From: Bacteroidales bacterium
GTDB taxonomy: Bacteria > Bacteroidota > Bacteroidia > Bacteroidales > Bacteroidaceae
NCBI GenBank assembly: GCA_012517855.1
Contig: JAAYUD010000011.1
Location: 1 to 64,000 of the forward strand
Direction: 5' to 3'
Length of the DNA: 64,000 nt
Below are positions 8,534 to 55,822 of the stretch, in pieces. Position 1 is the stretch's first letter. Every line of letters begins with the position of its first letter. The notes beneath the pieces are model-generated. The model had not been told where the DNA came from. It saw nothing but the letters and a program-made list of their open reading frames with translations, and made no database searches. Made by a program: the position numbers and the translations under genes.

Positions 8534-8873
8534 TTTTGCTCTATGACATCAAATTCCAGTGAATTTTGAGACCTTACTACTTCATAACACTATTTGACAT
8601 TCAATCATGCAAATTAGAAAAACGAAAATTCGTTTATCGTTGATAGCTAGATAAATAGATGTTTTGAAAAAGCGGTCTATATCTTGCTGAATTGTCGTAT
8701 GTTCCTTTTTTCGGCGACGTCCATACGTTTTCAAAAAAACTTAAGGACGTCAACATTTTTAGGGGCATACGTCATTTTGAAGACTAAAGAAACATTGTGG
8801 TGTGCTCATTGAAACCCTCCTTATTGGTAAAGTTGTGCCTTGTTTTTGTGTGCTATAGTGGAAAATAAAACTA
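8534..8873. other. intergenic region between rlmH and ald
   Basis: No gene is seen. The stretch carries copy 2 of the GACGTC hairpin element and ends at the ald terminator. A small palindrome (AACGAAAATTCGTT near 8624-8637) is also present. Confidence 0.6.
8694..8774. repeat. GACGTC hairpin element, copy 2 with outer arms
   Basis: The core 8716-8752 is identical to 10-46 (37 bp). Around it, CGTATGTTCC (from 8696) and GGGGCATACG (to about 8771) form an outer imperfect inverted repeat, giving two nested stems. Read on the minus strand, the flank CCCCTAAAAATGTTGACGTC closely matches the left side of copy 3 near 28050-28072, so copies 2 and 3 lie in opposite orientation. Confidence 0.75.
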
Positions 8874-27941: not shown

Positions 27942-28063
27942 GTCGAAAATGTACTAACACATATTCGCCTCTGTCTTGTGGGCAAAATAGGGCGTGGTAA
28001 ATACAAAGTAAATGGATCGTTTGAATACTTTTTAGTCTTTAAAATGACGATGCCTCTAAAAAT

Positions 28064-28104
28064 GTTGACGTCTATACGTTTTCTGAAAACGTATAGACGT
28101 TAAC
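28064..28104. repeat. GACGTC hairpin element, copy 3
   Basis: Arms of 20 bp (28064-28083 and 28085-28104) pair at 19 of 20 positions with a single-base centre. The left flank CCTCTAAAAATGTTGACGTC matches the minus strand of copy 2. This copy has a longer, more perfect stem than copies 1 and 2. It follows the TPR gene by about 120 bp. Confidence 0.75.
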
Positions 28105-28482
28105 TGTTTTTAAATTAAAGCTTTCTATCATTTTAATTTGCCACAAGATGTTATCGGTTTGCTTGACAATCCTAATAGCAAATATAAGTGTGGTCGGACA
28201 TTACTGTCACAGATTCTGTTTCCATATTTTGGAGTCAACGTAATGAGCCTTAAAATATTCATCCAACTGATGCATCATTCGTTTGAGCTTAGCCCGCTCT
28301 CTGCACTTCTGAATGTTTAAAATGGTACATATTGTTTTTATTTATTTTGTTCGATTATGCCGCATATATAAGCGTATCTTACCGATTGAGAGCCAATTGT
28401 TAGCTAGAAAAAAAACATGCCACAATCTCCTTATAAAGGAGTGATTATATCATTATGTCTTTGTTCTATATATATATAAGAA

Positions 28483-28566
28483 GTCTCACATGAGTGCGAC
28501 AAACGTCTCACAGCTGTGCGACAATTGTCTCACACGTGTGATACAGATGTCGCACACGTGTGAGAC
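28483..28566. repeat. palindrome array A: four 18-bp units, 22-bp period
   Basis: Units are GTCTCACATGAGTGCGAC (28483-28500), GTCTCACAGCTGTGCGAC (28505-28522), GTCTCACACGTGTGATAC (28527-28544) and GTCGCACACGTGTGAGAC (28549-28566). Spacers are AAAC, AATT and AGAT. Each unit is a near-palindrome built from 5-bp ends (GTCTC, GTCGC, GTATC in either orientation) around an ACA-NN-TGT core. The layout is identical to array B at 55473-55556 although the sequence differs. Confidence 0.9.
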
Positions 28567-28630
28567 TTCTGAGCCTTAACTATAAACTTAACCTTAAATG
28601 ACTAACTTATTGGAACAGTCAATTACAGCC

Positions 28631-28857
28631 GGTACTTATCAAAAAGAGTGGAGCACACTTGTCTGTGTGCAAAATTGGCCCTCAGCTATCTGTAGGCTGT
28701 CGTTTAGAATCATTCTAAACGACAGTCCGCTGAAAATAACGTTCCCACAATATGTTCTCAGGCCGATTTTTTGGCCTCTTTTCGCTGGCGTTGTATCTGG
28801 TGTCTTGTTAACCTTCTGTGGGATAGTACGGTATGGTGTCATACGGAGGTGGCAAAG
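28631..28857 (+). repeat. conserved module A of a dispersed element
   Basis: 227 bp that align with the reverse complement of 54835-55060 with one single-base gap, roughly 70-75% identical by eye. Shared blocks include GGTACTTATCAA, CTGCTGAAAATAA-like, GCTGGCGTTGTAT, GTATGGTGTCATAC and GAGGTGGCAAAG. Predicted hairpins: GCACAC/GTGTGC (28652-28670), a 14-bp perfect stem at 28697-28725 and GTATG/CATAC (28831-28844). Both strands stay open for about 55 codons, but differences between copies are not concentrated at third positions. A structured RNA or DNA element is favoured over a gene. Confidence 0.75.
28697..28725. repeat. perfect 14-bp stem within module A
   Basis: CTGTCGTTTAGAAT and its exact complement flank a single C. 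In module B only the inner part (TTAGAA/TTCTAA) still pairs. Confidence 0.8.
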
Positions 28858-29045
28858 AATCTAAATGATAAAATTTTTGCAGAGAGATTAAACCGAATGG
28901 ATTTGTTATCCATTCTTAGTTATTTTGCTTTTGGCCATTCCATTATTATGCATACTACCCCTAACTTTTACTAATAAGCCTATTGAATACTCTAGGTATA
29001 ATTAAATAATTGGCGAATAATGGATTTGTAGAGGGAGTAAAAATA

Positions 29046-54380: not shown

Positions 54381-54834
54381 TTTTTATTATATATTACAAT
54401 AATATTAACTATTCATCCAATTTATAATAAACTTCTATAAGAGAGAGAGTTCCTATTTTTATCTTTCGGACTTTTTAGGACCGAAGAAATATGCTACGGT
54501 AATGAAATAAGCTGGAGCTATTTGTCACTGCCTTTCTCCTTACACGCTGCAAAGGTATGGCTATTGGTGAAATAAAACAAAGAAAGTGAGTGCTACATTT
54601 TTATTAATTTCAACGATCTTGTTAGCTACTTACGATTTCATATAAACTAATAGTCTTATGCTTGGATTCGTAACTTCTTGAGGGCGTCTAAATGTATAAT
54701 CGGAATTTCAAAGGATTAATGAAAAATTATTATGCGGTTTTTATGTGGATAGGCCTTACGTCTATTTTTATAATTCAGATGAGGGTTCACAGGCGAGAAT
54801 TGGGGTACTCATCAAATTCTATCTGCATTTCAAC

Positions 54835-55060
54835 CTTTGCCACCTCTGTATGACACCATACGGAGCTATCATACAACAGATTAATGATGCACCGTATACA
54901 ACGCCAGCGGAAAAAGATCCGAAAATCGGCCCTAGAGTATACTGTAGAGTCCTTATTTTCAGCAGACCTTTGCTTAGAACGATTCTAAATGATAGGCTAC
55001 AGGTATCTGAGGAGCAGTTTGTACACAAATGGGTGTGAACCATCTTTCTTGATAAGTACC
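54835..55060 (-). repeat. conserved module B of the dispersed element
   Basis: 226 bp on the minus strand align with 28631-28857 with one single-base gap. Conserved hairpins include GTATG/CATAC and the inner TTAGAA/TTCTAA. The module lies 412 bp from array B, whereas array A and module A are only 64 bp apart. Frames on both strands are open in both copies but with no codon-position signal. Confidence 0.75.
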
Positions 55061-55286: not shown

Positions 55287-55472
55287 AACCGATTATCTTA
55301 TTACTCGATATTTGCCGTGTGCGCACTGTCTGGAAACTCTCGGGCGTGGGAATATCGATGCTGTTGCTATTGCATGGTCTTCGCGTGAGAGTAGGGGACA
55401 TTTTTGTGCACATCGTATTTAATTATGGTTATCGTATTTAAGGTATTTCTGTTGGCTCATTTAGGTTTTGTC

Positions 55473-55556
55473 GTTCCACATATGTGATTCGATCAACTCA
55501 CATATATGGAACGATCGAATCACATATGTGAGTTGATCGAATCACATATGTGGAAC
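55473..55556. repeat. palindrome array B: four 18-bp units, 22-bp period
   Basis: Units are GTTCCACATATGTGATTC (55473-55490), AACTCACATATATGGAAC (55495-55512), GAATCACATATGTGAGTT (55517-55534) and GAATCACATATGTGGAAC (55539-55556); all three spacers are GATC. Unit 4 is the exact reverse complement of unit 1. Half-sites GTTCC, GAATC and AACTC are shuffled around an ACATATGT core. The array is bracketed by GTC and GAC and folds on itself over about 36 bp per side. Confidence 0.9.
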
Positions 55557-55822
55557 GACATTCTTCTTAGGACAAAGAGATGAAACCTTCCTGATATGAA
55601 CCAATTTTCATCAGAATGTCTCACAGATCTCTCCTTTTTGGGGAGTTGTTATGGAACGCAATAAACCCTTTCATCGCTGCTCGCACGAAGAAAGACTATT
55701 CTTTTCTCTTTTGTCTAGGGGGTAAAACTTCCTTTTGATGTTTATTGCGTGTGCAAAGATTGTATCTTTCAAACGACATTGATTATCGTTTTCCTTTTAA
55801 TCGAAATGTTTTGTGCCGGAAT

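Follow-up and report, generated by a model that had tools for sequence, protein, structure and literature searches.

Two arrays of short palindromes in the DNA of a Bacteroidales bacterium, each lying upstream of a copy of the same conserved module, raise the question of whether array and module belong to one unit and, if so, of what kind of element they are part. The initial annotation of this stretch of 64,000 nucleotides (the window) read each pair as a single dispersed unit, possibly a small mobile element. The arrays and modules were indeed found where it had placed them, with module B on the minus strand and its array upstream. Array A consists of four palindromes at 22-bp spacing at positions 28483-28566 (TRF score 91, 3.8 copies, period 22) and precedes module A, named M, which occupies about 28632-28862 of the plus strand with an ungapped core at about 28679-28860 and reaches past the limit of 28857 initially given. 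Array B, also four palindromes at 22-bp spacing, lies at about 55469-55560 (TRF 55477-55552, period 22, 3.5 copies, score 96). The core of module B is at about 54832-55013 on the minus strand, where a 55-bp M pattern matches 54847-54901 with 1 mismatch. The two modules are inverted relative to each other, with 76% complementarity over 186 nt (28672-28857 against 54835-55020).

Array classes and module M in the genome

Searching the bacterium's own genome with the 55-bp pattern at up to 3 mismatches revealed 53 copies of M (26 forward, 27 reverse), far above chance expectation; the reversed pattern used as control gave 0 matches genome-wide. No M match was found in the 60 relatives searched. 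In 149 relatives, with at most 3 candidates scored per genome, the composite element gave a single 29-bp match and nothing else, and the genome-contig, viral-contig, plasmid and phage collections yielded no match (the source record is possibly absent from the genome contigs). As far as searched, M is restricted to this lineage. Several contigs of the draft genome G000 (C12, C23, C43, C82, C104, C106, C107, C109 and others) end in or beside these repeats or the insertion sequence (IS) described below, and repeat copy numbers are therefore probably lower bounds.

Arrays A and B differ in sequence, with cores CACACGTGTG and CACATATGTG, respectively. Each fits four TCAY-N4-RTGA sites at 22-bp spacing at 24 of 24 scored positions, a fit reached in 0 of 200 shuffles for a motif that was defined post hoc. 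Three array classes, counted by grouping overlapping pattern matches, populate the genome: A1 (CACACGTGTG) includes Array A, which holds matches to the genome pattern at 28509-28540 and 28531-28562; A2 (CACATATGTG) includes Array B and has at least 30 loci; A3 (TTTCGTCCTTAT) is found at 43 places. Of the 16 A1 arrays, 10 have an M copy at a distance of 1 kb or less, as do 23 of the 43 A3 arrays, when uniform scattering would give 0.47 and 1.25, respectively. For A2 the figure is 4 of the 30 loci listed (0.87 expected if uniform) and, because intergenic space is limited, it does not show a unit with M. Array A and module A are parts of one unit. Array B has a different sequence and 26 of the 30 listed loci of its class have no M within 1 kb, so that pair B is likely to be two neighbours, probably distinct elements or repeats sharing one gap, with Array B outside the module B element. 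The single unit initially proposed for both pairs thus holds for the A1 class and fails for the class of Array B. Solitary parts had been named as evidence against it and they do occur: 37 of the 53 modules have at least one array of the three classes within 1 kb and 16 have none, while M is missing near 6 of 16 A1 and 20 of 43 A3 arrays in addition to the A2 loci given above. A depth map of the 53 M loci reveals that the upstream parts joined to M differ between copies.

Another dispersed inverted repeat, R90 (GACGTCCATACGTTTTC..AAAAACTTAAGGACGTCACC), is found at 73 places of the genome and in the window at 10-72, 8690-8778 and 28050-28100. At some loci (L071, L073-L078, L084) a different module replaces M between an A3 array and R90, and most of these replacing modules are in turn followed by an additional array of the 22-bp type, based on AACTAACGTTAGTT. 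Inspection by eye showed M to be interrupted at a TTTAG/TTCTAA palindrome in L067, L080 and L103. The foreign end at the interruption, CCTGAATAATTCAC, is common to L067 and L103, as if another insertion sequence targeted the palindrome of M.

The sequence of M was examined for signs of a gene or a structured RNA using 49 copies (modules A and B are both in the alignment, from which L020, L060, L067 and a copy truncated at a contig end were omitted). One frame is free of stops in 30 of 52 copies. Divergence is about even across the three codon positions (0.11, 0.15, 0.12) and there is no surplus of synonymous changes (313 versus 325 expected), statistics on which a coding gene was rejected. Depletion of changes to stop in the open frame (8 versus 39 expected) counts the other way; when each change is counted once the numbers are 6 versus 8. 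We tentatively read the depletion as shared descent of an open sequence rather than selection. A non-coding RNA with a binding-site array was among the initial proposals, and was considered here as a dispersed structured RNA with M as its core and the array as its control region. The plus-strand consensus fold of M reaches -53.8, where 60 column shuffles give -44.5 (sd 3.7), with a z of 0.14 for the minus strand; 92% of cells are paired, a share that drops to 41-47% once partners are shifted by 1-3 columns, and single copies fold more stably than their flanks (mean z -1.62 versus -0.37 and -0.57, 24 each). However, compensatory changes are no more frequent than in shuffles (both partners changed in 5 pairs versus 6.5; covariation score 0.142 versus 0.148), the high-ranking coupled columns fall outside the consensus structure, the reverse strand is almost equally stable in single copies (z -1.28) and no Rfam family matches M. 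The RNA reading is thus left without the covariation it would call for and we regard it as improbable. For the block conservation of the mostly non-coding M, a subterminal transposition site or a 3'-end signal are our guesses.

A parent locus with HU and VapE genes

The origin of the element interior is suggested by locus L139 of the same genome. A VapE/DUF3874 gene is followed there by four 22-bp-spaced palindromes of class A1, a divergent HU-type gene and M at the 3' end of the latter. The 397-aa VapE-like protein matches PF05272 (E 3.6e-28) and DUF3874 (E 8e-17), and the 205-aa HU-HIG protein matches its family with E 5.5e-27. We consider L139, whose two genes are apparently intact, as the parent. 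M aligns to L139:5104-5279 with 86% identity, starting in the last HU codons and running on past the gene. The start of M descends from the end of the HU gene, in a frame other than the open frame of M.

Traces of both genes are found in the dispersed copies. HU matches at E<=1e-3 were obtained for 12 of the 53 M loci, parent included. In the window element (element A, L001) the first part of module A matches the C-terminal codons 182-204 of the parent HU gene with 70% identity at E 8e-4 without composition correction, a weak match which, like those of L003 and L005, is lost at E 1e-4 with composition correction. A remnant of the VapE-like gene 5' end was assigned to approximately 28238-28370 on the minus strand through DNA alignment with L016, for which a match to the parent VapE protein was obtained (32 aa, 66%, E 2e-9); element A has no direct match to the VapE protein at E 1e-3.

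Two further loci have related arrangements: L143 combines an A1 array with an HU paralog (51%) and VapE fragments, and in L157 an A2 array separates a VapE relative (42%) from HU remnants. The gaps of L139, L143 and L157 all carry four TCAY-N4-RTGA sites at 22 bp. VapE sequence is present at 7 of 12 A2 loci examined (L146, L147, L151, L153, L154, L155, L157) and also at L012, L028 and L059, while an HU match was found at 3 of 7 A1 loci examined (L139, L140, L143). Because of these matches A1 and A2 look like the gaps of two HU/VapE lineages. For A3, no HU or VapE match was found among the loci searched.

Element ends and a helper-type insertion sequence

In several copies M is bordered by an inverted repeat of the GGCTCAYCAGTAAAAGTTAGGGG kind, with which larger composites also begin. 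There are 24 such end-like sites in the genome at up to 2 mismatches and 0 in the control. One of them is the right terminal inverted repeat of element A, GGCTTATTAGTAAAAGTTAGGGG, at 28958-28980 on the minus strand, with 0 mismatches to the degenerate pattern; no left end of element A was recognised. The module B element has a possible decayed right end, GGTTCACAGGCGAGAATTGGGGTA, at 54784-54807 on the plus strand; the match is weak (10 of 24 positions differ from the consensus end), at the position where other copies carry their end. Few copies have two clear ends: a right-side end is matched at up to 8 of 24 mismatches in 13 of the 51 M copies with data, and a left-side end at up to 5 mismatches in 9 of 53.

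The most complete derivative is L008, whose ends are 673 bp apart and enclose an A1 array, HU remnants and M. It is flanked on both sides by GTTTAATT, a perfect 8-bp target duplication (8/8). ISL3 elements typically generate target duplications of 8 bp. The HU remnants are the sole protein matches of L008, which has no transposase of its own. Among the 12 end pairs examined, L008 is the one perfect case; L023 has a 7/8 duplication at a 1-bp shift, and in the other 10, several of them with poor or internal ends, no convincing duplication was found.

An insertion sequence of the same genome offers a candidate source of the moving activity. Its end, GGCTCACCAGTAAAAGTTGGGGG, is shared with the 24 element-type sites. 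A gene in L105 begins with the same end and matches ISAon1_upstream (E 1.8e-37, 128 bits, cut-off 55), so that the gene for the N-region is present. Copies of the IS stop at the ends of contigs C106 and C50, and the ISL3 DDE domain PF01610 was not found in the draft genome. At C109:25977/25978 this IS gene directly harbours an A3-class element bearing the same kind of end, and the contig stops before the other end. In other genomes, both ends of this general sequence are found at 2 of 19 ISAon1_upstream loci (L123 and L125, 7/23 mismatches), neither of which has an 8-bp duplication; the second gene of L123 encodes an ISAon1 transposase (E 3.7e-160). End matches are one-strand or weak at L120, L129 and L130, and 14 of the 19 loci have no such end at up to 8/23 mismatches. 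The absence of a transposase reported initially for the window holds for the 10 window proteins scanned, and movement of a small element in trans, proposed at the same time, is supported for elements of the type of element A by the ends and duplication of L008 and by the resemblance of the ends to those of an ISAon1-type IS in this genome.

The best reading of element A is that of a decayed miniature transposon (MITE) with ISAon1/ISL3-type ends, the interior of which is an array with end pieces of an HU/VapE unit. This interior would be what is left of a two-gene unit, namely the VapE-like 5' end, the four-palindrome array, HU remnants and M, the latter corresponding to the sequence that borders the HU gene on its 3' side in L139. 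Copies would have spread in trans through the activity of an ISAon1-type transposase making 8-bp target duplications. The general hypothesis that we favour, with moderate confidence, is one of miniature transposons, mobilised in trans, whose cargo is the operator or origin array belonging to an as yet undescribed HU/VapE pair, with protein binding and present mobility both presumed. The MITEs may descend from a complete two-gene transposon or result from capture of gene pieces; both readings stand because L139, L143 and L157 have no recognisable ends of this type at up to 6/23 mismatches.

A different view is that nothing moves at present: arrays and M would be old regulatory or chromosome-structure repeats that selection has kept in place, and nested repeats would have produced the inverted ends by chance. 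It accords with the conservation of M in blocks at a mean pairwise identity of ~81%, with the lack of near-identical pairs among the 53 loci (92.5% for the best long pair) and with a preference for convergent gaps: rough ORF calls for the 44 copies with ORFs on both sides gave 15 convergent, 13 and 11 co-directional and 5 divergent cases. However, the perfect duplication of L008, the element inside the IS gene and the HU/VapE remnants in copies speak against it, and identical young copies would probably vanish at assembly breaks. We judge this view unlikely.

The proposed MITEs have the short non-coding body, the ISAon1-type-like inverted ends and, in one case here, the 8-bp target duplication of MITEs of the ISL3/ISAon1 group. 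They differ from this group in an interior that derives from paired HU and VapE genes together with a palindrome array, in that the right part (M) is the only widely shared one, and in the formation of nested composites. Pack-MITE-type capture places transposon ends around gene fragments; the same disposition is seen here, the fragments being accompanied by their control region. The main text of a review on prokaryotic MITEs (PMC10969869) contains neither 'ISL3' nor 'Bacteroid'. BrickBuilt of Porphyromonas gingivalis is also dispersed and intergenic, and is described as a MITE with 23-nt tandem units between a leader and a tail, that is, short units with two unlike flanking parts (PMC4596501). 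Its ends are of the GAGACCTTTGCA type and IS5-like, and its units number from 1 to 22.8 (PMC4596501), whereas the ends found here are GGCTCACCAGTAAAAG, of ISAon1 type, and each array contains some four palindromic units of 22 bp. The differences in ends, IS family and unit length led us to reject membership in BrickBuilt, and a BrickBuilt-like MITE with IS5-type ends around an internal minisatellite is a highly improbable account of element A.

The array architecture in other Bacteroidales

Records with a VapE match were found in the plasmid collection, and 16 of 36 were examined. A divergent HU-type gene is present in 7 of the 16 (six annotated, L161 by eye). In 6 of these 7 loci, from named Bacteroidales, the gap between the genes has a best period of 22 bp, reached in 0 of 100 shuffles. 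The four TCAY-N4-RTGA sites, a motif read post hoc, reach scores of 19-24 out of 24 when spaced by 22 bp and of 13-18 at spacings 20, 21, 23 and 24. In the seventh, L171, a DUF4248 gene intervenes, the period is 20 bp and there is no 22-bp motif. L167 has no HU neighbour and a motif score of 24, and no such array was found in L168, L172 and L173, also without HU neighbour. Period 22 was found in 0 of 7 true control gaps, L163, L170 and L171 being test gaps and not controls. Four Phocaeicola massiliensis loci (L162, L164, L165, L166) have VapE without an adjacent HU gene and upstream arrays with periods of 21, 22 or 44 bp, built on another motif that is not specific to spacing 22. Two plasmid-labelled records carry housekeeping genes (transketolase and rpiB in NZ_OY725913, fusA and rpsL in NZ_OY725757) and therefore look like mislabelled chromosome pieces.

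Since the motif was read from the plasmid loci, 8 of 136 records from the phage collection were examined as a second set. Among those with a divergent HU gene, L175 gives a strong score of 22 (0 of 300 shuffles), L180 a weak one of 17 (10 of 300), and in L179 the motif is absent (score 15, 150 of 300). Among those without it, L181 scores 18 (1 of 300) and L176 scores 17 (15 of 300); nothing was found in L174, L177 and L178. The architecture of the HU/VapE gap is common in the sample and not universal.

The same arrangement between divergent HU/VapE genes in named Bacteroidales makes a binding-site array a plausible identity for arrays of the A and B type. The palindromes of the parent are most probably bound by an HU/winged-helix protein that would control two divergent promoters; the main alternative is an origin used by VapE. 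Iterons of plasmid origins and multi-site operators similarly have several related sites about two helical turns apart, beside a replication-type or DNA-binding gene. The arrays described here share the presence of several regularly spaced sites, and their centre varies between loci. In the open-access literature searched, no paper was found on an HU/VapE pair with such an array. A broader possibility, which we put forward tentatively, is that Bacteroidales have a widespread and undescribed pair of HU/winged-helix and VapE-like proteins, encoded back to back, with a gap array of four symmetric TCAY-N4-RTGA sites at 22-bp spacing and a pair-specific centre, that this pair functions as a private operator or origin system, and that in the present genome ISL3-type transposition spread fossil and miniature copies of it.

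An anonymous repeat thus becomes a traceable story in which the parent locus, the array, the miniature derivatives and a helper-type IS are found in one genome. The regularity seen across genera, four palindromes at 22 bp with a variable centre in the gap between HU-family and VapE genes, predicts binding sites of HU-family proteins and is directly testable. If the broader possibility is correct, many intergenic regions of this bacterium would have received surplus sites to which the protein of the unit itself could bind.
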